31,098 bases of DNA from a virus (IMGVR_UViG_3300009159_000211:1-31098); one strand, 5' to 3'. Positions 1 through 15,482 are shown, counted from the stretch's first letter. Notes: generated by a model from the letters alone, not told the origin. Numbers and translations are program-made.

Positions 1-1425
1 GTGGGCCCCAATACATTATTTGTGGGGTTCAGTAGCACCTGGTATCCCTGGCAATTAACTAACGGGGACTATGCTATTAATGAGCCTAGTAAACCACACA
101 ATAAGTATACTGGCCCTGTAATAGATGACAGTATACAAGTTAATTTTGCTAAACATGCTATTGTACAATATACTGAATATATAAGAAAAGCTAACAATAA
201 CACTAAAATCATATTGGGCGGTAGTAAAGTCTATATGTATTTTCTACCATTAATTGATAATTTCTTTATTGGATATAGTGATACTATGATTATAGACTAT
301 GCAAATAGTTTAAGCGGTCGTGGGCAGAAACGTTTATTCAGTAAGATAGTTGATTATGATAGCAAAGCACGTGACAGTAACTGGGACTTCCGTGACGCTG
401 TTATAGAATATCCAGAAGAAAGTTTTATATTACCCACGGAGACATTGTTATTAGAAGTTGGCCGTGGCTGTAGATTCCGTTGTAGTTTCTGTAGCTACCC
501 GTTGATCGGGGAAAAGAATACCGACTTATATCTAAAGCATGAAGAAGTATTATATAACGAATTATACAATAATTACATTAAACACGGGGTAACCAAGTAT
601 GTTATTGTAGACGATACATTTAATGACAGTACAGAGAAACTAGAACGTGTATTAAGTGTAGTAAAACGATTGCCATTCAAGCCCAAATTTTGGTGCTATT
701 GCCGTATTGATTTAATAGCTACACATAATGAACATATACAGTTATTAAAAGATATTGGTATACGTGAAGTATACTTTGGAATAGAAACATTTAATGTTAA
801 AGCAGGACGCACTATAGGGAAGGGTATGAATCCCGATAGAATAAAACGTACACTGGAACAATGTCATAGTGTGTGGGGCCGACAAGTTAATATAATGACG
901 GGACTAATCTGTGGATTACCCAATGATAATGTAAGTGACTTTGAGAATAGTTGCAGATACTTTGACAATACTAATGGCCCGGTTGGACATGTAAATGTTA
1001 CCCCATTACGTATATTCAAATATAAGAACGATTATTGGAACAAATATAAGTTTAAAGCAGAGTTTGAAAGTAATGCAGAACAGTATGGGTATACTTGGCC
1101 TGACGAGAATATACCTTGGTATTGGATAAAGAATGATGGTACTGACGTTACTGATTATTATATAGCAAATGAACTAGCAGTTAAATGGCAGAATATATTA
1201 GATAAACACTATACATTTCTACGCTGTTTCTTTTATACCAGTTGCTTATTAGATAATAGATTTGATTATGATATATTAATGGAATTAAGTAGTACAGATG
1301 AGTTTAATAATCATATTGGAAATACTGACATACGTGAGAGTATGAGAACACAGATAGAAGAATATTACTTTAAACCGTTATTCAGTTTTATAACCAGTAA
1401 ACGTCATCAGATACTTGGGGATTAA
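1..1425 (+). CDS. Radical SAM protein with probable B12-binding-type N-terminal domain (5' partial)
   Basis: The reading frame is open from the first base, so the true start may lie upstream of the window. Around residues 154-161 there is the radical SAM cluster motif CxxxCxxC (CRFRCSFC), which binds a [4Fe-4S] cluster for S-adenosylmethionine cleavage. Downstream come typical barrel strands, such as the VYFGIET segment followed by a GRTIGKG loop. The first ~130 residues (KIILGG, then FIGYSDTMI) resemble the Rossmann-like cobalamin-binding domain of B12-dependent radical SAM enzymes, but no clear DxHxxG is visible, so B12 binding is uncertain. The gene converges on the 2OG-oxygenase-like gene and overlaps its 3' end by 48 bp. 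It is one of six radical SAM genes in this cluster. The substrate cannot be named. Confidence 0.85.
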   Translation: MGPNTLFVGFSSTWYPWQLTNGDYAINEPSKPHNKYTGPVIDDSIQVNFAKHAIVQYTEYIRKANNNTKIILGGSKVYMYFLPLIDNFFIGYSDTMIIDYANSLSGRGQKRLFSKIVDYDSKARDSNWDFRDAVIEYPEESFILPTETLLLEVGRGCRFRCSFCSYPLIGEKNTDLYLKHEEVLYNELYNNYIKHGVTKYVIVDDTFNDSTEKLERVLSVVKRLPFKPKFWCYCRIDLIATHNEHIQLLKDIGIREVYFGIETFNVKAGRTIGKGMNPDRIKRTLEQCHSVWGRQVNIMTGLICGLPNDNVSDFENSCRYFDNTNGPVGHVNVTPLRIFKYKNDYWNKYKFKAEFESNAEQYGYTWPDENIPWYWIKNDGTDVTDYYIANELAVKWQNILDKHYTFLRCFFYTSCLLDNRFDYDILMELSSTDEFNNHIGNTDIRESMRTQIEEYYFKPLFSFITSKRHQILGD

Positions 1426-1932
1426 TCCCACGTTAGTTCCCGCATGCCAGCTATGAATATGTTCATACTGATATATACTTCCTTGCAATTCATTATAGTA
1501 ACAGTCATCTTCCGTGACAAAGACATGACCCGGAGCAGGCTTACTTAAGAACATAAAATATCGTACTAATTTTCCTAATTTTAATTGTTCTTGTTCCCAT
1601 GGATTAATGTCCCAATGCCATGGAGTACACTTGCCCGGGTATATCTCACTAACCCAACACATTAGTGGATTAGCTCCTACGAATTTTGCAAATTGCTCTG
1701 CATAGTCATAGGAGAAGTGTTCACCAGCTTGATAGTGACGATACTCTACCACATGTTCGTCATACCCGGCCAGTTCTAATGCCGTTGTTTGTCTGACGTA
1801 TTCCTGGTAGAAAGGATTATCAGGTGGCAGTATCATATGCCCATGTTGAGTATCTACATCAACACTAGCGATATCGGAAATCAATTGTTCACAATCAAAT
1901 ATAATACTAATATTACCTATGTATTTCTTCAT
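1378..1932 (-). CDS. 2OG-Fe(II) oxygenase-like protein (Asp/Asn hydroxylase-like fold)
   Basis: This 184-aa protein has the layout of a double-stranded beta-helix 2-oxoglutarate/Fe(II) oxygenase. There is a probable HxD iron-binding pair in PWHWDINP (around residue 107), a distal His in IHSWHAGTN (around residue 160), and a basic residue in the next strand. The same architecture appears in the gene at 10761-11264 (MHIDP ... GLHGAAN). Such enzymes hydroxylate or otherwise oxidise small molecules, peptides or proteins. The start codon overlaps the upstream gene's stop by 4 bp (ATGA), so the two are translationally coupled. The 3' end overlaps the convergent radical SAM gene. Family is moderately sure; substrate is unknown. 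Confidence 0.75.
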   Translation of the reverse strand: MKKYIGNISIIFDCEQLISDIASVDVDTQHGHMILPPDNPFYQEYVRQTTALELAGYDEHVVEYRHYQAGEHFSYDYAEQFAKFVGANPLMCWVSEIYPGKCTPWHWDINPWEQEQLKLGKLVRYFMFLSKPAPGHVFVTEDDCYYNELQGSIYQYEHIHSWHAGTNVGLIPKYLMTFTGYKTE

Positions 1933-2594
1933 ACTATTCCAAACTCCTTAGGTAATATCTTTAACATTTCACTGTACATACTTCTCTCTAAATTAAAACT
2001 AACTCCGTTACTTAATAATTTAAAATCATTAATTAATCCTTGCTTATTTGCATGATTTAATGGGCCACTCAATGTATTATCAAACAAGTATCTAGCATCG
2101 TCTTTGTCTATGTTTGTTACTAACGTTACTGGTACTGGATCCTGTAAAACGTTCTTATTCAATAGTTTTCGAATTACTAACTGATAACGTATCTTGTTCC
2201 CTAGATTACACGCACTATGTCTAGATCCAGCGTTCATTGTACACCATAACCCGTCACATTGTAAACTATGCATTGTTTCATCGTTTAAGTTAATTAGATA
2301 GCACTTTTCTCCGCTTAAGTTTAAATGGTATCTATCGTCTATATCAGCATGACTTATATAGCATTCGCCCCCATTTAACTTGATAATTCTAGCTTCACCC
2401 TTGTCCGACATATCTAAACTATTATATAATTCACCCCAAGCTGTGTCTACATATTCGTTACTCAATGTCCAAGGATCATAAAAGAAATCTCCTGTGGGTT
2501 CATTGATAGTAAAGCGAAATGTGTCTACGGGTATATTGTTTAATGCCCGTAGTATTAATTGATTGTTGATGGTAAATGTGGTAGGTGTAAGCAT
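1929..2594 (-). CDS. Aspartyl/asparaginyl beta-hydroxylase-like protein
   Basis: This 221-aa protein has the core of the Asp/Asn hydroxylase (2OG oxygenase) family. HADIDDRYHLNL (HxD near residue 84) is followed by a spaced SRHSACNLG and RYQLVIR, which supply the distal His and an Arg that would bind 2-oxoglutarate. The C-terminal ~70 residues have no recognisable motif. It is the first gene of a leftward operon with the next oxygenase-like gene, which it overlaps by 4 bp. A late-type octamer lies 5 nt upstream of the start, back to back with the octamer of the rightward operon. No Shine-Dalgarno sequence is visible. Function within the cluster is inferred only as an oxidative tailoring step. 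Confidence 0.72.
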   Translation of the reverse strand: MLTPTTFTINNQLILRALNNIPVDTFRFTINEPTGDFFYDPWTLSNEYVDTAWGELYNSLDMSDKGEARIIKLNGGECYISHADIDDRYHLNLSGEKCYLINLNDETMHSLQCDGLWCTMNAGSRHSACNLGNKIRYQLVIRKLLNKNVLQDPVPVTLVTNIDKDDARYLFDNTLSGPLNHANKQGLINDFKLLSNGVSFNLERSMYSEMLKILPKEFGIV

Positions 2595-2599
2595 AGAAA

Positions 2600-2607
2600 T
2601 ATTTAGT
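2600..2607 (-). promoter_or_regulatory. Late-type promoter octamer (ACTAAATA)
   Basis: ACTAAATA on the minus strand resembles the T4 late consensus TATAAATA. It sits 5 nt upstream of the ATG at 2594, leaving no room for a leader or ribosome binding site. Confidence 0.55.
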
Positions 2608-2621
2608 GCTAGGCTAATGTA

Positions 2622-2629
2622 ATTAAATA
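2622..2629 (+). promoter_or_regulatory. Late-type promoter octamer (ATTAAATA)
   Basis: ATTAAATA lies 5 nt before the ATG at 2635, in a 40-bp divergent intergenic region that also holds the octamer of the leftward operon. It resembles the T4 late consensus TATAAATA. Confidence 0.55.
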
Positions 2630-2634
2630 TTAAG

Positions 2635-3366
2635 ATGATCCCAAACGAATTTATAGAACAATATAGACATCATACACAGATATTGCATCCTATTCCGGAA
2701 CATCTCACTACAGTAGAACAAGCACGGTATATAGCTAATAGTAAATTTGGCTATATAGAACTATTAAAGAGTTTTGACGTTGATACATGGGTAGCTGAAG
2801 CCAAACAAGCAGAATCTTATTATGTGCATCACCGTGAGGGGGATAATCATGTTGGTTGGGACAGTTGCTGTATACACGGTTTGGGTACAGATAAGACGGG
2901 TGTTTGGCAGCATTATAGTGACACTGAGCCACAATATAATTGGACAGAATTAGCAGAATTAACACCCACAATTAAACAATTCTGGGAGTCAATGCCCTTT
3001 GAAAAACTATTACGTGTTAGATTTATGAGAGTGGCCCCAAATGGTTATGTTTATCCGCATAATGATAGTCCACCGAATGTTGATTTAAGTAATATAGATT
3101 TGTTAAATCATATTGTTCCCATTAATATAGCTATTACTCACCCTGAGTATTGCGTAATGGCATTGAAAGACTATGGTATTGTTCCCTGGACTCCGGGTGA
3201 TGTTAAATTGGTCAATATAACCAATGACCATTGCATTGTGAATAATTCAGTGTATAATAGAATACATATGATTGGCCATGGTATTATTGGTAATAAATTA
3301 GATGAATTTAGTGAAATGTTAGTAAAGAGTTATGAGCATACAAAAATTCCCAAGCACCCTCAATGA
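2635..3366 (+). CDS. Aspartyl/asparaginyl beta-hydroxylase-like 2OG oxygenase
   Basis: This 243-aa protein has a conserved oxygenase core in its second half. RFMRVAPNGYVYPHND supplies an HxD-type pair (near residue 138), NIAITHPEYC forms the middle strand, and VYNRIHMIGHG carries an Arg and a distal His. This order is typical of Asp/Asn beta-hydroxylase-like phage proteins. It is the first gene of the rightward operon 2635-8293. Its 3' end overlaps the next gene by 35 bp. It may hydroxylate a protein side chain or a small molecule; no direct evidence identifies the target. Confidence 0.75.
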   Translation: MIPNEFIEQYRHHTQILHPIPEHLTTVEQARYIANSKFGYIELLKSFDVDTWVAEAKQAESYYVHHREGDNHVGWDSCCIHGLGTDKTGVWQHYSDTEPQYNWTELAELTPTIKQFWESMPFEKLLRVRFMRVAPNGYVYPHNDSPPNVDLSNIDLLNHIVPINIAITHPEYCVMALKDYGIVPWTPGDVKLVNITNDHCIVNNSVYNRIHMIGHGIIGNKLDEFSEMLVKSYEHTKIPKHPQ

Positions 3367-4549
3367 TAAAAAAATAGCATACTGTATGGTAGATGATACC
3401 CATACATATAATCCAATGGCACGGGAGTATATTAAGAACATTGCGGATTATACTATCACTAACTTATACAGTAAGGGATATGATACTTTTGTAGGATTAT
3501 CCGAAAATGAACTATTAAAACAATGTGCGAATGACTATGAATATTGTGTAGTGTTCAGTCCTGGCACAGAGTTTATTAATGGTGATAATTTCTTTATTGA
3601 ATTAGAAAAAAGTTTAGATAAAGACTTCTTTATTATGGGGCATATATTAGACCGTAATGAAGCATACTATGAACTGCATCATCAGTGCTATGTAATCAAT
3701 TTAAAATACTATAAACAACACAATTGTCCGGATATTGGAAAACAAATACTAGGAAGTAAACATCGACAAATAAAGCCACACCGTAGCCATGACAATATAC
3801 ATGATGATTATACACCAGTTTGGGTGTCGGGTGGGGAAGATGAAACAGATTATAGTCACAAGATGCATGGACACAATATACTAAGTATAGCATTAGATAA
3901 TGATATCCCTGTATTAGTATTCGATGAACCATTCAGACAGAATAAAAAACATTATTATCCAGAGAATATAGATGTGTTTCTGGATCAGATTAATTATATA
4001 TACCAAAAACATAACTACTGTTTAACTACGTTTGTGCATACAGAGAATACAGACTGGCCTAATAGTAAATTAACTGATATTGAACAAGTGTTTACCCCTG
4101 CTAGCGGCACATGGTATACAGATATCATCAGTAAAACTAGACCCGTACATGTTGTTATGTATGATTACAATATTAAGGCATTAGAATACTGGAAGAACAA
4201 AGCACCCGTAATAGCTAATGTCTCATATGATTTTGTTCATTTAGACTTATTAAATGAAATAGTTGATTTACATCAATATTTTGATTACTCAAATAAAAAG
4301 ACCGTGTTTAATCTAAGCAATATCTTTGCTTATGAGGGAACAGTATCACTATATCCGTTACGATATAGATTGCATAGAGAGAACTATTGGATTAACAATA
4401 TTAATAAGTGTTTCCCTGATAGTTATATAACGTTTAGTAGCAGAGCCTGTACAGGGTTTATTGATTGTCCATTGTACGGACAATTAAGTCCAATTGATAT
4501 TAGTCAATTAAATACTCCTAGTTGGCATATGTATGGAGATTGGGTATGA
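3332..4549 (+). CDS. Putative glycosyltransferase-like protein of unknown function
   Basis: This 405-aa protein was not firmly assigned. The N-terminal half (CMVDDTHTYNPM, then EYCVVFSPGTEF and DFFIMGHILDR) reads like a GT-A nucleotide-sugar transferase fold: an alternating alpha/beta pattern followed by a CYVINLKYY strand often seen in phage glycosyltransferase-like proteins. The C-terminal part (KTVFNLSNIFAYEG) looks like a second alpha/beta domain, perhaps methyltransferase-like. It sits between an oxygenase and a PLP-enzyme gene. The next start codon overlaps its stop in an ATGA arrangement, so it is co-translated with the cluster. The coding call is sure; the function is weak. Confidence 0.75.
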   Translation: MSIQKFPSTLNDKKIAYCMVDDTHTYNPMAREYIKNIADYTITNLYSKGYDTFVGLSENELLKQCANDYEYCVVFSPGTEFINGDNFFIELEKSLDKDFFIMGHILDRNEAYYELHHQCYVINLKYYKQHNCPDIGKQILGSKHRQIKPHRSHDNIHDDYTPVWVSGGEDETDYSHKMHGHNILSIALDNDIPVLVFDEPFRQNKKHYYPENIDVFLDQINYIYQKHNYCLTTFVHTENTDWPNSKLTDIEQVFTPASGTWYTDIISKTRPVHVVMYDYNIKALEYWKNKAPVIANVSYDFVHLDLLNEIVDLHQYFDYSNKKTVFNLSNIFAYEGTVSLYPLRYRLHRENYWINNINKCFPDSYITFSSRACTGFIDCPLYGQLSPIDISQLNTPSWHMYGDWV

Positions 4550-5382
4550 GAACCGCATTAAGTTATTCTAAGAATTATCTACAGATATTCAAGCCACAAC
4601 CGTTAATTGACAGTTATTTAGAACTGTTAACTAATAATGTATTGAGTGGTCAGTTTAAATCCGAGTATGTCGAATATAGTGATTTTATAATACAATGTAG
4701 TAATTGGATAGATAGTACTACAGTGAATACATTAACTGGACTAGACAGTTATACCCGTAAAGATATTATAATAGGTTGTACTCAGTATATAGACAATCTT
4801 TATATGCAGGGCCCAGTACAAACTATTACTAATGATTATAGATATCATAATCGTCTAGGGTTATCTACTGTTACTGACGTTGGTAATTTAATACCCAACG
4901 TTCCGTTAATAATAGCAATGCCCTTCCCCAGCACCGGGGATATACATGTAAGTATGAAGGAAATACTAGATGAATGTGTTAAAAAAGATATTCCAGTACA
5001 TATTGACGGTGCATGGATTAGTTGTTGCCGCAATATTGTTTTTGATTTTAGTCATCCTAGTATCAAGTCCGTTGGGATCAGTCTTAGTAAAGGTCTTGGT
5101 CTAGGATGGAATCGTGTTGGTATTAGATATACAAAAGAGCCTGTACAGGATAGTATTAGTATAATGAACGATTTCAGTATGAACAATCGTGCATTAATAA
5201 CCATTGCAAAATACTTTATGGATAATACCCAACCGGATTATCTATGGTGGAGGCACAATATTAACTATAGTAAAGTATGCAAGGATTTTAATTTAACTGA
5301 AACCAACTGTATATATCTAGCATTAGATGATAATCAACCTGTTGGTATCAGCCCCTTATTAAGGTATTTAGAAAGAACATGA
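4546..5382 (+). CDS. PLP-dependent aminotransferase-like protein (fold type I)
   Basis: This 278-aa protein starts at the ATG overlapping the upstream stop (ATGA). It carries the two signature residues of fold-type I PLP enzymes in the correct order. An Asp in VPVHIDGAW would pair with the pyridine nitrogen. About 35 residues later, the Lys in GISLSKGLGLGWNRVG would form the Schiff base. The length is short compared with ~400 aa for typical aminotransferases, and the C-terminal domain seems reduced. Its position between putative sugar-transfer and PP-loop genes would suit the making of an amino sugar or amino acid-derived substituent, but that is inference. The next gene starts 4 bp before its stop. 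Confidence 0.72.
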   Translation: MRTALSYSKNYLQIFKPQPLIDSYLELLTNNVLSGQFKSEYVEYSDFIIQCSNWIDSTTVNTLTGLDSYTRKDIIIGCTQYIDNLYMQGPVQTITNDYRYHNRLGLSTVTDVGNLIPNVPLIIAMPFPSTGDIHVSMKEILDECVKKDIPVHIDGAWISCCRNIVFDFSHPSIKSVGISLSKGLGLGWNRVGIRYTKEPVQDSISIMNDFSMNNRALITIAKYFMDNTQPDYLWWRHNINYSKVCKDFNLTETNCIYLALDDNQPVGISPLLRYLERT

Positions 5383-6116
5383 ATAATTTTATAGTAGACA
5401 ATTTAGAGATTCCATTTAATAACGAATGGAGTAATATTGCAGTTAGTATAAGCGGTGGCGCAGATAGTGCGTTATTAGCCTATCTATTATGTAAGCATAT
5501 AACTGATAATAAATTGCCAATTGATATAGCTTTTATCAGTCATGTTAGAATGTGGAAGACTAGACCCTGGCAACGATATAATAGCTTGGATGTATATAGT
5601 TACTTCCTCCGCACGTTTAAAAACATACACTTTGAACGATATGAAAACTTTATTGCTCCTGATATTGAATGGGGCAATATAGGCCCTACATTCACAGATG
5701 AATATGGAAAGCCCAGTTCAGGGGATATTGCAGAGATTCGTAGCTATAGTGAATATATCTGTTATTATGAGAATGTAGACGCTTATTATAATGGTGTCAG
5801 TCATAATCCTAGAGGTATTGATTTAGGTGGAATGGAAAAGCGTAATGTAGAACCCACAGAAGAAAATCAATATCTACGATTAACTACACATATGAATAAA
5901 ACCGTAGTGCATCCATTTAGATTTATTGAGAAAGACTGGATCATCAGACAATACAATTCATTGCAATTAAATGAATTATTAAACAATACACGTAGTTGTG
6001 AGGGTGAATTTCCTGATATAAATTATACTACATATACACCGGGTCAATATGTACCTATATGTAATGAATGTTTCTGGTGTAAAGAAAGGTCGTGGGCAAT
6101 TGAACAATCAAAGTAA
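5379..6116 (+). CDS. PP-loop ATP-pyrophosphatase, QueC-like
   Basis: This 245-aa protein has the N-type ATP-pyrophosphatase P-loop SGGADS near residue 25, used to adenylate a carboxylate, amide or similar group. At the C terminus a Cys (RSCEGE) followed about 20 residues later by CNECFWC gives four cysteines in the spacing of the zinc site of QueC (7-cyano-7-deazaguanine synthase). A classic phage deazaguanine pathway would also bring FolE/QueD/QueE, none of which is recognisable here, so it may act on another acid. It overlaps the PLP gene by 4 bp, and the next radical SAM gene begins inside its 3' end. Confidence 0.8.
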   Translation: MNNFIVDNLEIPFNNEWSNIAVSISGGADSALLAYLLCKHITDNKLPIDIAFISHVRMWKTRPWQRYNSLDVYSYFLRTFKNIHFERYENFIAPDIEWGNIGPTFTDEYGKPSSGDIAEIRSYSEYICYYENVDAYYNGVSHNPRGIDLGGMEKRNVEPTEENQYLRLTTHMNKTVVHPFRFIEKDWIIRQYNSLQLNELLNNTRSCEGEFPDINYTTYTPGQYVPICNECFWCKERSWAIEQSK

Positions 6117-7365
6117 CACATTCTGTATGCATCCGTTTACCGGATTAGCTACACGTGAAGATGGGGCAATATTAGTATGTTGTCGCAGTCATCCTATAGG
6201 GGATATTACAAAGAATACACTAGAAGAAATATGGAATAATGACAATATGAAACGTATTCGTCATCAAGTTTGTAATAGTATACGTCCTAAAGAATGCGAA
6301 CCCTGTTTTGTATTAGAAGACCAGGGTGTTGAAAGTTTAAGACAACGACATATTACGGGTGCAATACCTGAATCACGTGCTATATTATATCCACACGCAT
6401 TAGATAGCTTACGAGAAGACTACACCATGCCATTTGAAATCCCCACAATGGAAATCAAATTGAATAACTTGTGTAATCTAAAATGCCGTATGTGTCATCC
6501 TATGGACAGCACAAGCTGGAACGATTGGCAAGAAGTAGAAGAATTCTATATTAAAGAAAACAACTATATGGTTCAAGCTATTAAAGATTTGAATTTGTTG
6601 CAGAAACCCTACTTAGATAAGTTTGAAGACAATCCTAATTGGTGGGATAGTTTTGCTAAGATTATACCATATTTCCGTCGTGCAGAATTTGCAGGTGGCG
6701 AGCCACTTATGGATCCACAACATTATCGCATATTAGACATGCTAAGTGAGTATGGACATAATATTGAGATTAAGTACGCAACCAATTTAACTACACTAGG
6801 CAAGGGTCGCAGAAACATATATGATTACTGGCCTAAGTTTAAAAGTGTAGCAGTAAACGTAAGTATAGACGGATTTGAAAATAGCCATGACTATATTCGC
6901 GGTAACGGTGATTGGAGAGAATTAATATCAAATATTAAAGAGGTACAAAAGATACCTAATCTAAATCGTATTGTTGGTGCAGTTGCTGTGCAAGTATCTA
7001 ATGTACTTGTATTAGATAAAATGATTGAATATTTCCTAAATGATTTGGGTATTGTATTTTATACTAATATGGTTAAGTATCCTAATGTATTAAGCATACA
7101 AGTATTGCCACAAGAGTTAAAAGATTTAGCTATTAGAAGATTAGAGATAGTTAGATTGCGTGTACCCACTTATAAGTATGTTATAGAACATCCTATACTA
7201 TTAAATCTAACACTAAAACAAATTGAAGGTATTATTAATTTCATTAAGTCAAATGATACATCACATTTATGGAATGATTGTATTGAATTTAATCATAGAT
7301 TAGATAAATCACGCAAACAATTAAGTTTTGAAGAAATAACCCCAGAGTTTAAACCGTATGTATAA
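6100..7365 (+). CDS. Twitch-domain radical SAM protein with N-terminal auxiliary cluster
   Basis: The N terminus carries FCMHPF ... ILVCCRS ... CEPCF, a SPASM/twitch-like set of cysteines for an auxiliary Fe-S cluster placed ahead of the core. The radical SAM core then begins with CNLKCRMC, followed by the FAGGEPLMD strand that contacts SAM. This order matches the 'N-twitch' radical SAM family. The start was set at TTG 6100, which keeps the FC motif and limits overlap with the PP-loop gene to 17 bp; ATG codons at 6049, 6064 and 6127 are alternatives. It ends with an 8-bp overlap with the next radical SAM gene. Related enzymes modify peptides, but no precursor peptide is visible nearby. Confidence 0.85.
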   Translation: MNNQSNTFCMHPFTGLATREDGAILVCCRSHPIGDITKNTLEEIWNNDNMKRIRHQVCNSIRPKECEPCFVLEDQGVESLRQRHITGAIPESRAILYPHALDSLREDYTMPFEIPTMEIKLNNLCNLKCRMCHPMDSTSWNDWQEVEEFYIKENNYMVQAIKDLNLLQKPYLDKFEDNPNWWDSFAKIIPYFRRAEFAGGEPLMDPQHYRILDMLSEYGHNIEIKYATNLTTLGKGRRNIYDYWPKFKSVAVNVSIDGFENSHDYIRGNGDWRELISNIKEVQKIPNLNRIVGAVAVQVSNVLVLDKMIEYFLNDLGIVFYTNMVKYPNVLSIQVLPQELKDLAIRRLEIVRLRVPTYKYVIEHPILLNLTLKQIEGIINFIKSNDTSHLWNDCIEFNHRLDKSRKQLSFEEITPEFKPYV

Positions 7366-8293
7366 AGTAAACAGCCGCTGGAATCATCAGGACAGTATTA
7401 AGATTGAATGGAACTTAGGCAAACGCTGTAACTATGATTGCAGTTATTGCCCAAGCGAAATACACGATAACACTAGCCCACATACCGATATCAATATACT
7501 AAAAAGCACTGTAGATAAACTCTGTGAGTTACCCAAACCAGTACGACTAAGTTTTACCGGTGGCGAACCTTGCGTACATCCTCAAATAGAAGAATTGTTA
7601 TCATATGTAAAAGAAAAAGGTATTAAGTGGCTAAGTGTTACTACTAATGGAACTAGAAAAGGTAGTTGGTATAAGCAAATGCCCGTCAATCAATATGTAA
7701 TCAGCTTGCATTTTACTGAGGGTGATTGGCGTAACGTATTAGATACTGTGCATGATATTATATGGGATAATGAAGAAACTCCTAACATTGTAGTCAATGT
7801 AATGGCTCATCATAAAATGATGAACGAATGTAAAGAAGCAGTAGAGTACTTGGAAACATTTAGTGTTCCGTATGTTATTAGACGCATACGTTGGACAGAG
7901 GGTGAGCAAGATTTGTTTGACGATATGAAGTACGACCAGAATGATTTAGACTGGATACTGAGTAAGACCGCTACTGTAAAACCCAATACATTTATACATC
8001 ACCGTGATGTATATAATCCATTAACTGTTATACATGCAAATGATGTAATCAAATTGCACTTAAACAAGTATAAGGGTTGGAAGTGCAATATTGGATTAGA
8101 AAGTCTAATGATTAATTGGGACGGTGATGTACATGGTGCTACATGTAGAGTGGGCGGTAGCTTGGGTAATATCTATAATGATACGTTTATTGTGCCCACA
8201 GAACCCGCAATATGCACACGTAACAATTGCACATGTGCGGCTGATATCCCTATTACTAAAATAAATGACTCAGTTCCGGAAATACAGACTTAG
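7358..8293 (+). CDS. Radical SAM protein with C-terminal Cys-rich (SPASM-like) end
   Basis: This 311-aa protein has the core motif CNYDCSYC (near residue 24) and the GGE motif SFTGGEPCVH. At the C terminus there is a WKCNIG, a TCRVGG and a CTRNNCTC, which would bind one auxiliary Fe-S cluster. It closely resembles in layout the minus-strand protein at 11841-12806 (CNYKCSYC, then SFSGGEPTAY, then CTTPSC), so the two are probably paralogues. The ATG overlaps the stop of the preceding twitch protein. The 3' end overlaps the convergent twitch gene by 38 bp. Confidence 0.85.
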   Translation: MYKVNSRWNHQDSIKIEWNLGKRCNYDCSYCPSEIHDNTSPHTDINILKSTVDKLCELPKPVRLSFTGGEPCVHPQIEELLSYVKEKGIKWLSVTTNGTRKGSWYKQMPVNQYVISLHFTEGDWRNVLDTVHDIIWDNEETPNIVVNVMAHHKMMNECKEAVEYLETFSVPYVIRRIRWTEGEQDLFDDMKYDQNDLDWILSKTATVKPNTFIHHRDVYNPLTVIHANDVIKLHLNKYKGWKCNIGLESLMINWDGDVHGATCRVGGSLGNIYNDTFIVPTEPAICTRNNCTCAADIPITKINDSVPEIQT

Positions 8294-9668
8294 CATCTGT
8301 CTTTCTGATACCATCTAAGTTATTCACGTATTCTTTTAAGTCCGGCAATAGATTACTGTGGTCTTCTGATGTTACAAAATTTAAGATACCCTGCCAACGT
8401 TTCCATCCATATGGGTTTACATGCCAGAAATTGTCGTCTTGTGTGTAGTTGTTCCATAGCCATTCTTTAAAGTTTTCAAAGTCTTTTACTAACTGTTCTT
8501 TATCTTCTTTAGGCAATAGTCTTGCACTTAAGAATGTAGGGATGTATAGTAAATGTAAACTAATGATTCCACCGCCGGCTTGATAGTCATCAATAGTAAA
8601 CTTGTTAATACGTTTGTATCCTTTGCTTAGTTTCCATTTAGCAAAGTCTATGATATGTTTGATATTGAATATCTGTACTGCACATGCAACATTGCAATGT
8701 ATGTTATCGGGTGCGGTGTCTAACAAGTCTAATGACTTCTCAATGTCAGTCCAATCAGTTGGGAAACGTATATATGCATTACGTGAATCACATGCATCAA
8801 TACTAAAAGCAAAACGCACACGTTTAAACTGACTCCATACATTGATTATATCTTCATTAACGAATATACCATTACTGTTGTAACGTAGACTAATCTTGTG
8901 TGCATACCCGCGCTTGATAATTTCATCTAAGAACCTACGATGTTCTTTAATCATTAGCGGTTCGCCACCAGCAAAGTATAGTTGAGTAATATTAGGAATC
9001 TGTTCAAATACTTCTTCCCAAAACTCCGGGCGCTCATACCAATAGTTGTTAAAGTCCTTGCTGTCCCATTCTATCTGACTGAATACTACATTGCTTTTAG
9101 TAACTTTGATTATCTTTTTGTAGTCGCTTACCCACCCACTGCTATCATGCGGACTACACATAACACATTTAAGATTACAAGTATGTCCTAATCGTAAATC
9201 AAAGTAACGAATCACTTCGGGCACATGTCCATCTTCCGTTGTATCTTTAATCAATTGGTCAAAGTCTAATCCATCTTTGTTCCACTCATACATTTCCCAT
9301 AACCGTTTACTGACTACCCCGTTGCTTTCTTCTTCAAAGCATTTAGTACAACTTGCGGGTATCTTACCCTCTAACATAGTTGTGCGGACACTTCGCATGT
9401 ATTCGTTGTTGAATGCGCTTAGTACAGTTTCTTTGCCAAAGTTAGCTGGCACACCATTTTCTTTTTTGACCAAGCCAACTGTATGGTCACCGGTGTGAGC
9501 GCCACTTGCATTAGTCACACAGCATAACCGTGCATCACCGTTTGGTCTTGTAGCAACATGTAGCCAGGGCAATGCACAGAATGTAGGACTACCTGTTAGT
9601 TTTTCAATTTGTCTTTGTCCTGCACCCATACGTGTTTCTTCGGGTTGAAACCAGAAATATTTACTCAT
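8256..9668 (-). CDS. Twitch-domain radical SAM protein
   Basis: This protein of about 470 aa has the same architecture as 6100-7365. The N-terminal cysteines (FCALPWLHV, RLCCVTN, CTKCFEE) form an auxiliary cluster. The radical SAM core motif is CNLKCVMC, followed by LYFAGGEPLM. The start was placed at ATG 9668 (MSKYFWFQ), which overlaps the end of the upstream radical SAM gene by 8 bp; a longer form from 9710 is possible. It is the last gene of a leftward operon that starts at 10743. Two such proteins in opposite orientation suggest an old duplication. Confidence 0.85.
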   Translation of the reverse strand: MSKYFWFQPEETRMGAGQRQIEKLTGSPTFCALPWLHVATRPNGDARLCCVTNASGAHTGDHTVGLVKKENGVPANFGKETVLSAFNNEYMRSVRTTMLEGKIPASCTKCFEEESNGVVSKRLWEMYEWNKDGLDFDQLIKDTTEDGHVPEVIRYFDLRLGHTCNLKCVMCSPHDSSGWVSDYKKIIKVTKSNVVFSQIEWDSKDFNNYWYERPEFWEEVFEQIPNITQLYFAGGEPLMIKEHRRFLDEIIKRGYAHKISLRYNSNGIFVNEDIINVWSQFKRVRFAFSIDACDSRNAYIRFPTDWTDIEKSLDLLDTAPDNIHCNVACAVQIFNIKHIIDFAKWKLSKGYKRINKFTIDDYQAGGGIISLHLLYIPTFLSARLLPKEDKEQLVKDFENFKEWLWNNYTQDDNFWHVNPYGWKRWQGILNFVTSEDHSNLLPDLKEYVNNLDGIRKTDAKSVFPELSHLF

Positions 9669-10743
9669 TGATTTTCTCTTTTTCTCTAAATTGGTCTTTG
9701 GGTTTAGCAATATCTATTGTGCCACATGTTCTAGCACATGTGATTAGTTTAGTATCGTTCCAATACTTGTGCCACACTGTTTGATATTCAGTCGAATCTA
9801 CAATATCTTTTACACTACGATTAAGTGCATTCATGTTATCAATACCGCCTAAGTCTTTCATTAAGTCGTGGTACTGTGATAGTATCTTTCTACGTACATC
9901 ACCTGCATAGTCGCCCGGCATGATATATGTATATGGTAAACTACTTAGCCAACAACATGGCATTAGTGTCTTGTAAGCATCAATATATATTTCTTTATTT
10001 TCTTGCACAAAGCAATTGATGGTAGCTTGTTGTGCTACTTGTTCTGCATTGTCTATCATTTTCTTATCAATGAACTTTAGTGTATTATCAGTGCTAGGCT
10101 TTAAGTGATGTGTTACGTTACCGTCTTTATCTAATACGGGGTATGTTGGATCCATTATGAATCTGCTACTATTCTTAACTGTAAACTGTTCAAAACCTAT
10201 TCCAATTGCTATTTTTCTAGCCTCTTCTACTTGATGTTCATTGTGTTTAAACTTAATGAATGTCCAATCTGCTCTGCCACCAGCACCGATAAATGCTGTT
10301 GCGTTTTCTAGTATCTTGTTGTAATCTGTGCCTATTCTGTATAGACTATGAGTATCGGCTAATCCGTCTAATGCAAATATAACTAAATGATCTTTGGGCA
10401 GACTCTTAGCTAATTGTTTCCACCAACTTGGGTTGCGTAAACTTCCGTTAGTATGTATAGCGATACGAGTATCTGGTGCGACAGTTTTACTATATTCGCA
10501 CATGTCGATTAGATTGTTATTAAGTAACGGGTCACCAAAGTTTCCGCAATGATAATAACTTTCTATTTGATGTAATACTTCTTCGGTCATGATGTTTTTG
10601 AAATCATCCAATGACCAATTTTGTATTTTCAATAGTGGATTCTCAAGCCCGCCGTGTACATTTCTACTGCACATTGGGCAACCGGCTTGACAGTTATTGG
10701 TAATTTCCAAATGGATTTGTTTTAATTCGTTGAACTTGAACAT
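9661..10743 (-). CDS. Radical SAM/SPASM-like protein
   Basis: This 360-aa protein has the core motif CQAGCPMC near residue 18. A GNFGDPL segment stands in place of the usual GGE motif, a variation seen in some phage members. The C terminus has cysteines (INCFV, MPCCWL, CARTCG) spaced like an auxiliary cluster site. It heads a two-gene leftward operon whose start lies 7 nt from a TATAAATA octamer. A rightward oxygenase gene starts from the other side of the same 17-bp gap. Substrate is unknown. Confidence 0.83.
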   Translation of the reverse strand: MFKFNELKQIHLEITNNCQAGCPMCSRNVHGGLENPLLKIQNWSLDDFKNIMTEEVLHQIESYYHCGNFGDPLLNNNLIDMCEYSKTVAPDTRIAIHTNGSLRNPSWWKQLAKSLPKDHLVIFALDGLADTHSLYRIGTDYNKILENATAFIGAGGRADWTFIKFKHNEHQVEEARKIAIGIGFEQFTVKNSSRFIMDPTYPVLDKDGNVTHHLKPSTDNTLKFIDKKMIDNAEQVAQQATINCFVQENKEIYIDAYKTLMPCCWLSSLPYTYIMPGDYAGDVRRKILSQYHDLMKDLGGIDNMNALNRSVKDIVDSTEYQTVWHKYWNDTKLITCARTCGTIDIAKPKDQFREKEKINE

Positions 10744-10744
10744 T

Positions 10745-10752
10745 GTTAAATA
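10745..10752 (+). promoter_or_regulatory. Late-type promoter octamer (GTTAAATA)
   Basis: GTTAAATA lies 8 nt before the ATG at 10761. It overlaps the opposite-strand octamer at 10751-10758, so one tiny divergent region would serve both operons. Confidence 0.5.
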
Positions 10753-10758
10753 TTTATA
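10751..10758 (-). promoter_or_regulatory. Late promoter octamer (TATAAATA, exact consensus)
   Basis: The minus strand reads TATAAATA, identical to the T4 late consensus, 7 nt upstream of the radical SAM start at 10743. Confidence 0.65.
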
Positions 10759-10760
10759 TC

Positions 10761-11264
10761 ATGCAATACATAGCTAATTATAATCATTGGGTTCGTCAAG
10801 AATGGGTAGACGAGATATTAAACAGTAAGGGTTGGGGTAGACCTGCTGAGGGTAAGAAACCTGATAGTGTAGAGGAAGAACGTGAATATCAACGTGCCCG
10901 TGATGCGGGATATAAAGACAGCGATATCTATTTTTATATGTTTGACAAGACCAATGTAAGTTTTACCTTAGAGTTTCCTTTTATTACGGGAGAGTATCAT
11001 TGGTGGATTACCAAGATGATGCCCGGAAACTTTATGCCCATGCATATTGACCCGCATACCGAATACCAAGCTAACAGTCAGCGTTATTGGATGCCATGGC
11101 AAGATTGGCAACCCGGACATATTTTTATGTATGAGGATACAGTAACTACTAACTATGCTAAGGGTGATTTATATTGCTATACAAATAGCAATGGATTACA
11201 CGGGGCCGCAAATATCGGATACACACCGCGTATCGTCTTGCAGATTAGTACTTACGACCGATAA
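10761..11264 (+). CDS. 2OG-Fe(II) oxygenase-like protein
   Basis: This 167-aa protein has MHIDPHT (an HxD iron-binding pair) and YWMPWQDWQPGHIFMYED. It ends with a distal His in NGLHGAAN and an Arg in TPRIVLQ. The layout matches the protein at 1378-1932, and the two are probably paralogues. ATG 10761 was chosen because it follows the late-type octamer and is preceded only by a rare TTG in frame. The 3' end overlaps the convergent methyltransferase gene by 20 bp. The target of oxidation is unknown. Confidence 0.77.
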   Translation: MQYIANYNHWVRQEWVDEILNSKGWGRPAEGKKPDSVEEEREYQRARDAGYKDSDIYFYMFDKTNVSFTLEFPFITGEYHWWITKMMPGNFMPMHIDPHTEYQANSQRYWMPWQDWQPGHIFMYEDTVTTNYAKGDLYCYTNSNGLHGAANIGYTPRIVLQISTYDR

Positions 11265-11844
11265 TCATATGCCGGGTATATAGTTGAAGTTTTAAGCTAC
11301 CACTATATAATTTGTTTATATGTGATTGCTTTTCAAACTCTTGTAATGTTGTGCATGTTCTAATATGTTCAGGTATCTTATAGTCATTGCTCTGTAACAC
11401 AATTAAACTATCTTTTGGAACATTATTCAACCATGACTCATATTGTTCTTGTGTAATATGTTCGCAACTGGTATTGATAACAACATTTCCGTGAATGGGT
11501 ACTTTGCACATGTCCCCGGTGATTGCTCTGAATCTCCCATCTTGTTCTTCTATCTTATTCATCATAGTAGCAACATGTTCACACAATGGATCAATATCTA
11601 CGCTACGGATATGTCTATAACTAGAACCTATATCTGATTGAAACATAAGACTTGCTAGTGCCCCTACCCAACCACCATGAATATCAACTGACACAACATT
11701 ATCAATATACGGCGTTAAATTTCCAATCAACCATTCTTTGCTTTTAAGTTGTCCACTCCAAAATGCATCTAGTGTACGCATTGGGTTGTTGCTTCCTCTA
11801 ATAGCACACATCCAAAAGTGTAAATGTTCTGTATCTATTTTCAT
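11245..11844 (-). CDS. Class I SAM-dependent methyltransferase-like protein
   Basis: This 199-aa protein shows a Rossmann methyltransferase pattern. VVSVDIHGGWVGALAS corresponds to the glycine-rich motif I. IRSVDIDPLCEH carries the acidic residue that binds the SAM ribose. GDM and VINTSCEHI follow as motifs II-IV. The start codon overlaps the end of the upstream radical SAM gene by 4 bp, making it the third gene of the leftward operon that begins with the duplicated glycosyltransferase. The acceptor is unknown; a sugar, peptide or metabolite made by the cluster is possible. Confidence 0.75.
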   Translation of the reverse strand: MKIDTEHLHFWMCAIRGSNNPMRTLDAFWSGQLKSKEWLIGNLTPYIDNVVSVDIHGGWVGALASLMFQSDIGSSYRHIRSVDIDPLCEHVATMMNKIEEQDGRFRAITGDMCKVPIHGNVVINTSCEHITQEQYESWLNNVPKDSLIVLQSNDYKIPEHIRTCTTLQEFEKQSHINKLYSGSLKLQLYTRHMIIGRKY

Positions 11845-12806
11845 ACTTTTACTTTAGGTATCTTACTATCTGCACTGCTAACACAGCTTGGTGTAGTACA
11901 GATTGTGGGCTTATCAAAAATAGTAAACCCTTCACTCAATGTTCCTAGTCTTTTATCATGGCAACTATAACTACGTTTCACTTCATCCTCACGTATTACA
12001 ATACCCTGATAGCCACTATTACACATCCATCCTTCAAATTTGTTAAACCCAAATGCATTGAAACGTTCGGCTTGATCTAAATGCCAAACTTTGTGTTCAT
12101 CATCTATAAGTTTTACTTGTAGCAATTCTTCTTCACGTACATGTTGTGGGAAACCTGTACGCATTAATTGTATCATATCTTCACTATATCCGTCAACAAC
12201 TTTACTAGCAGTTGGATCACTTTGTGGCTTTAGTGTTACATTGATTCCCCGCTCATGGAATCGCTTACACCGAGTATATAAGTCCATAAATTGTTCCGGT
12301 ACCATAACTTGATTAACAGTTACAAACACATTGTTTTCATTTAAGAATAATATCTTATTACCAAATTCTTTTTCATTTGCAAACTCATGGTGAAAACTAG
12401 CAGTGATACTACGGCGTCTGCTTAACTCAGTAGCCTTAAGCCATCGTTCCCACCATTGAATACCGGGACTTAAGTTAGTAGTCATGTGGATACTGTCGTA
12501 TAATACCTTTTCTGCCATCACTAGGAAGTGTTTATATGCTGTAGGTTCTCCACCACTGAAACTCCAATGAAACTTTGTGTAGCCATTATTACTAGCTTGT
12601 TGTCTAATATCGTCCATTGACCTAGTATAGATTTCTAGTTCTTGATGATCGGGTATTTGTGTGTTAGCATATGGCCAACAGTAACTACATTTGTAGTTAC
12701 AGAATCTTCCTAGTATCCAACTGATAGAGAATAAATTTTCATCAAGCATTGTTGCTTGACCAAATTTAACTATGCGCTGCCAGGGTATGTTGTTGAAATT
12801 CGTCAT
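11841..12806 (-). CDS. Radical SAM protein with C-terminal Cys-rich end
   Basis: This 321-aa protein has CNYKCSYC (near residue 36) and SFSGGEPTAY. C-terminal cysteines (WMCNSG, SYSCHD, CTTPSC) probably bind an auxiliary cluster. It is a likely paralogue of 7358-8293. ATG 12806 overlaps the upstream glycosyltransferase gene by 41 bp; an in-frame ATG at 12749 would remove the overlap but would lose a plausible N-terminal segment. It sits between the glycosyltransferase and methyltransferase genes in one leftward operon. Confidence 0.83.
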   Translation of the reverse strand: MTNFNNIPWQRIVKFGQATMLDENLFSISWILGRFCNYKCSYCWPYANTQIPDHQELEIYTRSMDDIRQQASNNGYTKFHWSFSGGEPTAYKHFLVMAEKVLYDSIHMTTNLSPGIQWWERWLKATELSRRRSITASFHHEFANEKEFGNKILFLNENNVFVTVNQVMVPEQFMDLYTRCKRFHERGINVTLKPQSDPTASKVVDGYSEDMIQLMRTGFPQHVREEELLQVKLIDDEHKVWHLDQAERFNAFGFNKFEGWMCNSGYQGIVIREDEVKRSYSCHDKRLGTLSEGFTIFDKPTICTTPSCVSSADSKIPKVKV

Positions 12807-14331
12807 ACTTATTTTTTAACCATTCGTAATTGTTTATATTGTGTAGGTCTTTTTGCGCTAGACCATACTCCCTACCAGCCAATGCACCAGCATAACATTG
12901 ATACCCATAAATAGCATCTTCATTCAGTGTACACCAAACACTCAATCTATGTTGTGTTTCTGTACTATTTTGATTTTTAATAACCTCACTAGCCAACTTG
13001 CAACATTCTCTAAATGCTGTTCTATATGTGCTATATGCATCAGTGTTAAATTGATGTATGTTACTTAATACCATAACAGGTTCATAGTATTCGCTAATGC
13101 TTGTGGTCATGTCTACGTTGTCAGTTCTCATACGTAGCACACTAGTTCTGGGTAACAGTTTAATTCCACCATGCCCATACACTAATCCGTTGATAGGGTT
13201 CTTAGCACGAAACACACGTACTTTAGGTTGTTCGTAGAATGGGATATCATATACAAAATCAAAATCATCCACTAACACAGCATCACCATCTATTGCCCAA
13301 AAGTAATCAGTCTGACACATTTTTGCGGCTTCTATGTGTGCCCTATGTATTCCTTTATAGCCTGCTAGTAGTTTTGTTCTTGGAAACTTTTCTTTGATTT
13401 TACTGAAGTTTTCCTCTGCACCTGGTTCATTGTTATGTATGAATACTATATCGTATAGTGTGTTTGTTTCGGGGCTACGTTTGACACATACGATTCTGTT
13501 TCTGTACTCAGTACTATAGTAATCTACTGGTATGTCTTGTATTCTATAGTCAATGGTATTAAGTAGTTTACCCAATCTATTACATTCGTTTTCATTAATG
13601 GTAAGACTATTGAATAAGTTATTTAAGTAGTCAAAGTCATTGACCTTTTCAATACTAAAATTCTTTTTAATCTTCATTAGGTAGCAAGCATACCTAGCCC
13701 CATAGACACAATAGATGCCGTTTTCAATGTCTTGACCCACATGCATCCATCTCCATAGTCTATCATGGTTGCGCCAATCTAACTTGAGCATACTATATTT
13801 CTCTTCCCCATCATTGAGAAGTAGTTTGATTCCTTCACGGAATCCAGCACGAAATGCTTGTTGGCTGCTACCGTTGATAGCTATATTGCTACCCACTGTA
13901 TTGATTTGTAGGTATTTTGTAAAATCAAAGTCTACCTTTACATCAACATTGGTAGTATGTTCGTGGGTTTGCATTGATTGTAGTAGAGATACTGGCCAGA
14001 CTTTTATGCCCCCGTTACCGTAAACATTCCCATTGACTATATTGTATGCACTAAAACTCAATACTGTATCATAAATGTCTTCCTTTGATACATCATACGT
14101 CTTTTGGTAAAAATAGTCCTTTACAATATTGTCCCCATCGACTATAATAACGTTTGTTGCGAAATCTTTAACTAAGTTAGCAACGGCTTTGTGGGCACTA
14201 TCACTACCCTTGACTCCATGAATGCGTAATGCATTTGGATTAAGAGTCAATAGGTGTTGATAGTTTGATTCACAATTAGGTTCGTCATAACTTAGGAACA
14301 CAGTAGGATAATCGATAGGATTAAAAATCAT
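12766..14331 (-). CDS. Tandem-duplicated phage glycosyltransferase
   Basis: This 521-aa protein consists of two homologous halves. The first has VFLSYDEPNCESNY, HGVKGSDSAH, VIIVDGDN and VYGNGGIKVWP. The second repeats the order with IVFIHNNEPGAEENF, AGYKGIHRAH, WAIDGDAV and VYGHGGIKLLP, then an AFRE segment in each half. Both halves keep a DxD-type metal and nucleotide-sugar site (DGD). This family is common in T4-like phages, where single-domain members are annotated as glycosyltransferases. The duplication suggests either two sugar-transfer reactions or one catalytic and one binding half. It heads the leftward operon and starts 4 nt from a late-type octamer. Confidence 0.85.
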   Translation of the reverse strand: MIFNPIDYPTVFLSYDEPNCESNYQHLLTLNPNALRIHGVKGSDSAHKAVANLVKDFATNVIIVDGDNIVKDYFYQKTYDVSKEDIYDTVLSFSAYNIVNGNVYGNGGIKVWPVSLLQSMQTHEHTTNVDVKVDFDFTKYLQINTVGSNIAINGSSQQAFRAGFREGIKLLLNDGEEKYSMLKLDWRNHDRLWRWMHVGQDIENGIYCVYGARYACYLMKIKKNFSIEKVNDFDYLNNLFNSLTINENECNRLGKLLNTIDYRIQDIPVDYYSTEYRNRIVCVKRSPETNTLYDIVFIHNNEPGAEENFSKIKEKFPRTKLLAGYKGIHRAHIEAAKMCQTDYFWAIDGDAVLVDDFDFVYDIPFYEQPKVRVFRAKNPINGLVYGHGGIKLLPRTSVLRMRTDNVDMTTSISEYYEPVMVLSNIHQFNTDAYSTYRTAFRECCKLASEVIKNQNSTETQHRLSVWCTLNEDAIYGYQCYAGALAGREYGLAQKDLHNINNYEWLKNKYDEFQQHTLAAHS

Positions 14332-14335
14332 ACTG

Positions 14336-14343
14336 TATTTAAA
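14336..14343 (-). promoter_or_regulatory. Late-type promoter octamer (TTTAAATA)
   Basis: The minus strand reads TTTAAATA, one base from TATAAATA, 4 nt upstream of the glycosyltransferase start at 14331. Confidence 0.55.
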
Positions 14344-14385
14344 GATTTACTACTTTCGTTTTAAATAAATTGGGTAAACTAAAGG

Positions 14386-14414
14386 TTGACGTTAAGTCAA
14401 TTTTGATGTATACT
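14386..14414 (+). promoter_or_regulatory. Sigma70-type promoter upstream of the tRNA region
   Basis: TTGACG, a 17-bp spacer and TATACT. The promoter points rightward into the tRNA region and is divergent from the late operon on the other strand. Confidence 0.7.
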
Positions 14415-14479
14415 TCACACATGAATTGAAAAACACATCTTATTTGATGTATTTTGAAACCAGGACTAAATAAAAGACT

Positions 14480-14611
14480 ATGATGAATAAAACTTGTAAC
14501 TCGCTGAAACATATGGGACTATGGTCAATAGACTCCTTAGCCTTTGTACCAGCATATCCTACAAGTATTCGCGGCACAGAGAATCAAAGAGAGGCCCGGG
14601 GAACGGAATAA
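14480..14611 (+). CDS. Possible 43-aa small protein, unknown
   Basis: An ATG-started frame of 43 codons lies about 65 nt downstream of the promoter at 14386 and ends before the terminator at 14641, so one short transcript would contain only this frame. The product has no recognised motif (it contains LWSIDSLAFVPAYP). There is no well-placed ribosome binding site; AGGA lies about 14 nt upstream. It could instead be a non-coding transcript. Confidence is low. Confidence 0.3.
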   Translation: MMNKTCNSLKHMGLWSIDSLAFVPAYPTSIRGTENQREARGTE

Positions 14612-14640
14612 CAAGTTAGCATCATAACAAATTATTTTAA

Positions 14641-14673
14641 CCCCTGGGAAACTGAAAAGTCTCAGGGGTTTTT
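14641..14673 (+). terminator. Intrinsic terminator
   Basis: A 9-bp stem (CCCCTGGGA with TCTCAGGGG, one G-T pair) and a 10-nt loop are followed by TTTTT. It would end the short transcript from the promoter at 14386. Confidence 0.85.
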
Positions 14674-14702
14674 GCTTTTGTAGCAGAAAAACAACAAGGA
14701 GT

Positions 14703-14731
14703 TTGACAGAAATTGAAAAAGAATGTAGAAT
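14703..14731 (+). promoter_or_regulatory. Possible sigma70-type promoter
   Basis: TTGACA, 17-bp spacer, TAGAAT. It follows the terminator and would drive the structured RNA and the first tRNAs, but it overlaps the start of a possible small gene. Confidence 0.55.
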
Positions 14732-14874
14732 TGGGTTCTTCTGATAAAGTGAATTGGTTAAAGAATCATTCAATGACAGAGGAACAAAAGAAAAAATTAA
14801 TTGAGGACAAACTAAAACGTGTTCTCAATCATGTAAAGTTAGTGCAGAGAGCAGACAAACTGCTTAAAAGCTAA
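14713..14874 (+). CDS. Possible 53-aa charged helical protein, unknown
   Basis: A TTG-started frame follows AAGGAG (14695-14700) by about 12 nt. The product is rich in Lys and Glu and looks helical (MTEEQKKKLIEDKL, then HVKLVQRADKLLKS), a coding-like pattern. GTG 14749 or ATG 14773 are alternative starts. These would suit the overlapping promoter-like sequence at 14703-14731 better. No family was recognised. Confidence 0.45.
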   Translation: MKKNVELGSSDKVNWLKNHSMTEEQKKKLIEDKLKRVLNHVKLVQRADKLLKS

Positions 14875-14909
14875 CTAAGTGTTAAAATGTAGAAACGAGG
14901 TCTACACTA

Positions 14910-15115
14910 CGCACTATAAACAGTAGTAAACGGGCGGACAGTATACATGAAATTCATGGCGACAACGTGAAAAGTAAGACTACTGGGTAGGGTATCAACC
15001 CTATCATAGCGTGGATGTTGAAAGATACATCACGCTATTCTAAAACACATTTCCGACAGCTGGCGGAGGTGACAATGTCCATTCGGGTGAATGTGTTTTA
15101 GAATAGCATAGTGCG
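14910..15115 (+). ncRNA. Multi-branched structured RNA upstream of the first tRNA
   Basis: The segment is closed by an 8-bp stem (CGCACTAT 14910-14917 with ATAGTGCG 15108-15115). Inside are AGTAGT/ACTACT (14922/14979), TAGGGT/ACCCTA (14988/14998) and AGCGTGGATGT/ACATCACGCT with one bulge (15008/15027). A perfect 18-bp stem pairs 15034-15051 with 15090-15107. This many nested exact stems is unlikely by chance and implies a folded transcript of about 206 nt. A further 6-bp hairpin precedes it at 14888-14906. Any match to a known RNA family was not recognised. Confidence 0.7.
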
Positions 15116-15173
15116 AGGAAAACATCAGACCCTGTGAAGGTCGAAAGTACGCACGTGACTATTAAAAATATGT

Positions 15174-15247: not shown

Positions 15248-15254
15248 AATTTAT

Positions 15255-15330: not shown

Positions 15331-15334
15331 GTTT

Positions 15335-15395: not shown

Positions 15396-15401
15396 TTATA
15401 T

Positions 15402-15478: not shown

Positions 15479-15482
15479 ATAT

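Follow-up and report, generated by a model that had tools for sequence, protein, structure and literature searches.

To our knowledge, radical S-adenosylmethionine (SAM) enzymes have rarely been reported in viruses. The closest described systems are the Campylobacter phages CP220 and CPt10, which encode 11-12 radical SAM proteins within an exchangeable gene block (Timms et al. 2010; PMC2853527), and the pelagimyophages, whose host recognition clusters hold radical SAM cassettes; hypervariable islands are a usual feature of T4-like phage genomes, and none with such cassettes was reported in freshwater (fonsimyophage) genomes (PMC7029224). Literature searches with the phrases tried returned no study of what radical SAM proteins do for the phages that encode them. 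Here we describe an island of 15 enzyme-like genes, six of which encode radical SAM proteins, at bases 1-14331 of the viral record IMGVR_UViG_3300009159_000211:1-31098, a complete IMG/VR record of 31,098 bases that is referred to below as the window.

Our favoured explanation, held tentatively, is that this is a late-expressed, modular tailoring island of large, uncultured T4-like phages from water that builds an unusual unit of the surface-glycan type. The evidence comes from the enzyme families and their arrangement, from a set of related phage loci in which a core of the island is conserved, from the promoters at the operon heads, and from counterparts of the core on bacterial chromosomes.

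Enzyme families of the island

The 15 genes, designated A to O, fill 99.6% of the island, with a widest gap of 40 bp and overlap between most adjacent genes. Gene A is truncated by the contig edge, so that its 5' end and its operon head are out of view. Near-identical contigs were recovered from other samples (L002 and L003), which disfavours an assembly artefact. The first-pass annotation, made from the sequence alone, had described a tightly packed cluster with six radical SAM genes, four 2-oxoglutarate (2OG)-oxygenase-like genes, a PP-loop protein with SGGADS and a pyridoxal-phosphate (PLP) enzyme with its lysine, and each of these assignments held.

All six radical SAM proteins (A, H, I, J, K and N) score above the PF04055 cut-off and possess the CxxxCxxC motif. 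The truncated A (1..1425, plus strand; PF04055 5e-17) has a B12-binding-like N-terminal region of the class B type; its best NCBIfam model, that of a PhpK-type P-methyltransferase, was matched at 5e-18 but far under the cut-off, and the structure of AprD4 was matched at 0.006. H (6049..7365, plus strand; 1.6e-97) and J (8256..9668, minus strand; 9.7e-114) are N-terminal twitch proteins that belong to NF033640 (N_Twi_rSAM), with 327 and 380 bits, respectively, against a curated cut-off of 170 bits, and none of the 143 H-type or 163 J-type proteins lacks CxxxCxxC. H may instead start at 6064 or 6127. J is a core gene with chromosomal orthologues, as discussed below. The remaining three are I (7358..8293, plus strand; PF04055 3.6e-11), a paralogue of N; K (9661..10743, minus strand; 3.6e-8), a core protein with additional C-terminal cysteines; and N (11841..12806, minus strand; 7.6e-10), also core, which adjoins M.

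Four oxygenase-like proteins, each with an HxD...H motif, accompany the radical SAM proteins. C (1929..2594, minus strand), a core protein of the Asp/Asn beta-hydroxylase or proline-hydroxylase-like type, matches PDB entry 7v4f at 3.9e-18 and L-proline cis-4-hydroxylase at 1.6e-4 in profile searches. B (1378..1932, minus strand) and L (10761..11264, plus strand) are paralogues, 29% identical, that share the invariant HxD...H, with an invariant R also in B, and both weakly match the same PDB beta-hydroxylase as C. D (2635..3366, plus strand) is an Asp_Arg_Hydrox-type oxygenase that passes PF05118 at 4.8e-6 and is a frequent partner of E.

F (4546..5382, plus strand) is a short, aminotransferase-like fold-type-I PLP enzyme, matched by valine-pyruvate transaminase models at 6e-4, with an invariant signature, DGAW and SxSKxxGxGxNRxG, that supplies the PLP Lys, Asp and Arg of such enzymes; a search of the PDB gave no match. 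G (5379..6116, plus strand) is a QueC-like PP-loop ATPase with a Cys cluster, recognised from weak PP-loop and QueC matches, and its alignment (69% mean column identity) has invariant SGGADS and CxxC..C motifs. No match to G was found in the PDB, in cultured phages or in the genome contigs searched, and G is predicted to be an amide- or nitrile-forming ligase. M (11245..11844, minus strand) is a strongly conserved core protein (67% mean column identity) with an INTSCEH motif; library searches gave no convincing match, tblastn against cultured phages gave none, and a Gly-rich motif was seen by eye. O (12766..14331, minus strand) consists of two homologous GT-A glycosyltransferase-like halves, 27.6% identical (E-value 1.2e-17), with a conserved DGD, and its nearest folds in Foldseek, at low TM-scores, are K4CP (chondroitin polymerase), LH3 and SunS. 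E (3332..4549, plus strand) joins an N-terminal GT-A-like domain to a C-terminal methyltransferase-like domain, as judged from conservation and from an AlphaFold model (pLDDT 92.8) that matches COLGALT1, LARGE1, KsgA and MnmM, again at low TM-scores. Because these scores are low, O and E are assigned to the superfamily level only. Of the sugar- and methyl-transfer genes proposed earlier, O and E are glycosyltransferase-like by fold only, and M is methyltransferase-like without a convincing library match.

Several members of the island had also been proposed to be duplicates. The paralogy is real, with E-values of 3e-40 for H and J, 6e-14 for I and N, and 2e-10 for B and L, but the pairs are not local copies. 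The twitch tree has numerous long branches, and for this reason only its well-supported H and J clades were used; the two proteins fall in separate, old clades, which makes them ancient paralogues, and local gene duplication was rejected on this ground.

Conserved core, variable periphery and late-type promoters

Searching viral contigs with J and with G yielded 160 loci, dereplicated with the window to 100 loci, 70 of which (the long loci) are of at least 15 kb. Long loci have a median of 7 radical SAM genes, and each of ten long phage records encodes 8-17 radical SAM proteins. K is present in all 70 long loci, J in 69, I in 68, H in 66, M in 64, C in 62, N in 58, G in 56 and F in 44. Among the 100 loci, K and M are adjacent in 49, H and I in 47, G and H in 45, and M and N in 45, with J-K likewise within 42-49. 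The conserved core comprises N-M-K, F-G-H-I, J and C, surrounded by a fast-changing periphery: A, B, D, E, L and O are variable and more diverged than the core (D and E are neighbours in 16 loci), and even between close relatives the periphery is strongly variable while the core is kept. The active-site motifs are preserved at a rate of about 95-100%. The first-pass annotation had proposed a comparison of gene order and had named single, scattered genes as the outcome that would count against it; the families instead stay together.

Relatives add further enzymes to the periphery, including a tryptophan halogenase-type protein (1.8e-99), a fatty-acid desaturase (2e-20) and an epimerase, and, recognised by eye only, amidinotransferase-, SGNH-, acetyltransferase-like and further oxygenase-like proteins. 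One relative (G002) has more genes of the halogenase family (u44) and of u45 at a second site of the same genome, at ~32-47 kb. A protein of relatives that is absent from the window (u1) was considered as a kinase on the basis of a PDB match to TTK (3.6e-5), and was set aside as it seems to be without the usual catalytic Asp.

The phage background is T4-like for several relatives, with gp23 found in 4/10 relative records at about 1e-99 to 1e-80. No structural gene was seen in the window contig; the T4-type genes are known from the relatives. One relative (G001) has its island between structural genes and a transfer RNA (tRNA) array, which adjoins the island in the window too. This genome has a second island next to its baseplate and fibre-like genes, which encodes a further four twitch-type proteins along with a carbamoyltransferase. 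Genes for carbamoyltransferase, GT25 and PfkB are found close to the islands and fibre genes of this genome. Very large RCC1-repeat proteins, possibly fibres, are also encoded near its island (L173 12381-20000 and L174 1-11904). The edges of the islands vary, and may be formed by a tRNA array, u4-u9 genes or a fibre gene of the Mtd_N family. A search for a linked substrate protein had been proposed earlier; no structural gene consistently co-occurs at the island edges.

T4 late promoters have an octamer as their -10 element. Late-type octamers had been noted at all four visible operon heads of the island; a TAAATA-type octamer indeed lies close to the start codon at every visible head, but these heads number five (C, D, K, L and O). 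The exact TATAAATA occurs among the window heads at K only, and 4 copies were found in the AT-rich window against 5.3 expected, which is not above chance. Counts of TATAAATA from the window alone were discarded as uninformative, and the significance of the octamer derives from its position across relatives, not from its window frequency. NWNAAATA starts 11-16 nt (mostly 12-13) before the ATG at 129/384 operon heads, compared to 46/1327 internal genes, and a Shine-Dalgarno-like motif precedes only 3/129 octamer-bearing heads, compared to 310/1327 internal genes. In the window, a divergent promoter region with TAAATA octamers serves C and D (2595..2634), the 17 bp between the ATGs of K and L (10744..10760) form a putative bidirectional late-type promoter with GATATAAATATTTAACA (minus strand) common to both, and an octamer of the TTTAAATA type begins 12 nt before the ATG of O (14332..14350, minus strand). 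Octamers are often palindromic promoters common to divergent genes, both at 10744-10760 and 2595-2634 of the window and at heads in relatives. If the octamer works as a T4 late -10 element, transcripts would begin at or near the ATG, and late, apparently leaderless expression of the operons is likely, judging from promoter spacing. Such a tight octamer-ATG distance is missing from several structural genes checked in G001, and gp23 is preceded by an ordinary Shine-Dalgarno sequence.

Between the island and the tRNA array, ~800 bases (14350-15170) are mostly without convincing genes and include a terminator-like hairpin near 14640-14675. The array that follows (15174-23974) comprises 35 tRNA genes, in which each of the 20 amino acids is represented, with a single-domain parvulin-type peptidyl-prolyl isomerase encoded within it (22423-22692), and tRNA is the only Rfam match in the window. 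The gene at 24596-26023 encodes an RNA-binding protein of family phrog_850 (DUF2828/DUF7788), which has members in 682 phage records. Predicted transfer-messenger RNA genes lie near the phage tRNA arrays of two relatives (L177 9886-10279 in G001 and L197 12470-12886 in G002).

Bacterial counterparts and candidate products

The J-N-K-M set recurs in bacteria. The M profile found homologues in Rhizobiales, whose neighbours, as read by eye, include glycosyltransferases and an ABC transporter, and in Bdellovibrionota, close to twitch proteins. In a bacterial metagenome-assembled genome (G011), the stretch that separates tuf from the nusG-rpl-rpo operon carries homologues of H, D, F, A, O, N, J, M, K and G, as well as UDPG_MGDP_dh, GT2, PMT_2 and PP-loop genes. 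Phage and chromosomal J proteins group in a single supported clade, with H in a separate old clade. This genome and a Bdellovibrionota genome (G013) each have 12 NF033640 genes above cut-off, and other twitch loci in them have flippase-, GT4- or exporter-like neighbourhoods. Across the two genomes, 9/24 twitch genes lie within 10 kb of a GT2 or GT4 match, compared to a background of 8-15% (p 0.02 and 0.01). It is mainly this proximity of bacterial twitch genes to glycosyltransferases that lends modest support to a glycan-type product.

The enzyme families, with their active sites intact, are co-located, divide into core and periphery, carry late-type promoters and share a core with bacterial chromosomes, and from these direct observations we infer the chemistry of the product, its acceptor and the benefit to the phage. 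The core (radical SAM proteins N-K, J and H-I, with M, F, G and the hydroxylase C) would build a unit of the surface-glycan type, such as a sugar or a sugar-linked amino acid that has been C-H-functionalised, aminated and amidated. The rapidly exchanged periphery, here A, B/L, D, E and O and in relatives the halogenase, desaturase, amidinotransferase-like, acetyltransferase-like and SGNH-like proteins, would decorate the unit and transfer it. The product would most likely be deposited on the envelope glycan of the infected cell or on virion fibres, where variability could pay through receptor masking or recognition. A late modification of virion protein, glycan or host envelope had been suggested in the first-pass annotation; this is supported in part, by the co-location, the T4-like background and the late-type promoters, and among the acceptor classes surface glycan has the best support, through the bacterial context and the GT-A folds. 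A stronger version, that phages have a complete, evolvable pathway, its core common to predatory bacteria, for a previously undescribed, radical-SAM-made surface glycan with genome-by-genome, antigen-like diversification and leaderless bidirectional late promoters, is more doubtful.

Several findings weigh against a glycan product. Recognisable glycosyltransferases are not universal, with O in 16/70 and E in 25/70 long loci, E has no DxD motif, and ordinary GT2 proteins are almost absent from the phage records. Profile searches of the window found no nucleotide-sugar synthesis or export genes, which do lie beside the bacterial homologues. The enrichment near glycosyltransferases comes from two genomes with modest p-values (0.01-0.02), and the chromosomal copies in L300 and L303 are found amid housekeeping genes. 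Furthermore, the island edges are variable, and an Mtd_N-family fibre gene abuts 3/36 of them. Mtd_N lies within ~10 kb of the island in 6/8 Mtd_N-bearing records, where a rough hand estimate expects 3.6; in ten records this linkage is not significant against chance, and it was rejected as proof of the acceptor.

Three rivals follow in order of probability: protein hypermodification, then a free product, then nucleic-acid modification. Side chains of a virion protein such as a fibre or whisker could be hydroxylated, methylated, cross-linked or glycosylated in the manner of RiPP (ribosomally synthesised and post-translationally modified peptide) or collagen maturation, which we consider unlikely as the function of the island. 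The combination of radical SAM, beta-hydroxylase and B12-type radical SAM enzymes resembles polytheonamide-type tailoring, the folds nearest to O and E belong to hydroxylysine glycosyltransferases and to SunS, a peptide S-glycosyltransferase (at low TM-scores), D and E are frequently adjacent, and Mtd_N-type receptor-binding proteins are close to several islands. Yet this proximity is within chance in 10 records, no structural gene consistently accompanies the island edges, and, as first noted from the sequence, there is no precursor peptide gene: gaps are at most 40 bp, no conserved small open reading frame lies inside the island, and no PqqD/RRE domain was found in 10 relative records, other RRE types not having been tested. 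With no precursor space and no PqqD/RRE protein in these records, the RiPP reading was rejected. That the enzymes make a diffusible natural product or a cofactor late in infection, for instance for use against competitors or in host manipulation, is improbable: the halogenase-type, desaturase and amidinotransferase-like extras of relatives and the extensive combinatorial variation recall natural-product pathways, but no NRPS, PKS or RiPP scaffold, exporter or resistance gene was seen, and a secreted product would presumably be of little gain to a lytic phage.

Less probable still is that the island is unconnected cargo, a hot spot of insertion that gathers auxiliary enzymes of separate function. 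Hypervariable islands are usual in T4-like phages (PMC7029224) and the periphery is mosaic in gene order, whereas the core stays together and ordered across strongly diverged loci in the adjacencies given above, 83% of neighbouring gene pairs overlap, and bacteria have the J-N-K-M set as well. Hypermodification of nucleic acids, either of phage DNA or of the tRNAs of the neighbouring array, has the lowest standing. QueC-like PP-loop, radical SAM and PLP enzymes are known in base hypermodification, the island borders the array in the window, G001 and G002, and QueD is found in 4/10 relatives. However, QueD is far from the island, no DNA- or tRNA-binding domain was found, and one relative (G004) has the island but no tRNA within its 200 kb. 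Modification of tRNA, as suggested by adjacency, was rejected since tRNA arrays form just 3/36 island edges. A standard deazaguanine set, whose absence had been noted at the outset, was also rejected as a route of DNA modification, as only the QueC-like G lies inside the island and QueD does not (DpdA and FolE were not searched).

Comparison with described systems

Like the island, the module of CP220 and CPt10 is an exchangeable block of many radical SAM genes and an amidinotransferase gene in a T4-like phage, positioned upstream of a tail-fibre gene. However, the similarity is distant (K is 23% identical), and in a Campylobacter phage (L202) only the K-, I- and amidinotransferase-type profiles match, with none of the F, G, J and M core. 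Single phages described here, with 8-17 radical SAM proteins, have about as many as CP220/CPt10 or more.

Phage Mosig (MT647606) has a hypervariable island between tail-fibre and VrlC genes that encodes radical SAM, Asp_Arg_Hydrox, desaturase, aminotransferase, methyltransferase and carbamoyltransferase proteins and is matched by profiles D, F, K, I, M, u3, u11, u38 and u40, but it has fewer radical SAM genes and no match to the twitch proteins (H/J) or to the PP-loop protein G. The analogous islands of Mosig and CP220 are next to tail-fibre genes. A host recognition island would be expected between VrlC/tail-fibre genes and the neck gene gp14; in the relatives of the window, the edges are variable. 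The cultured, 255-kb Vibrio phage K566 (OZ196521) groups four twitch-like radical SAM genes in a single block and shares the RNA-binding protein family of the window, although the twitch profile alone matches and no M, G or F homologue was recognised. The islands of G013 and G011 have an orthologous J and homologous N, K, M and O, joined in G011 by G, D, F and A, but they are chromosomal and include sugar dehydrogenase, GT2- and GT39-type genes.

The conserved core, shuffled periphery, chromosomal counterpart and fixed promoter design make the puzzle of phage radical SAM enzymes testable, offering one core pathway, ~100 natural variants and few candidate acceptor classes. Radical SAM islands are already known from Campylobacter phages and pelagiphages; the present set is larger, has a core of its own, and is linked to islands on bacterial chromosomes.

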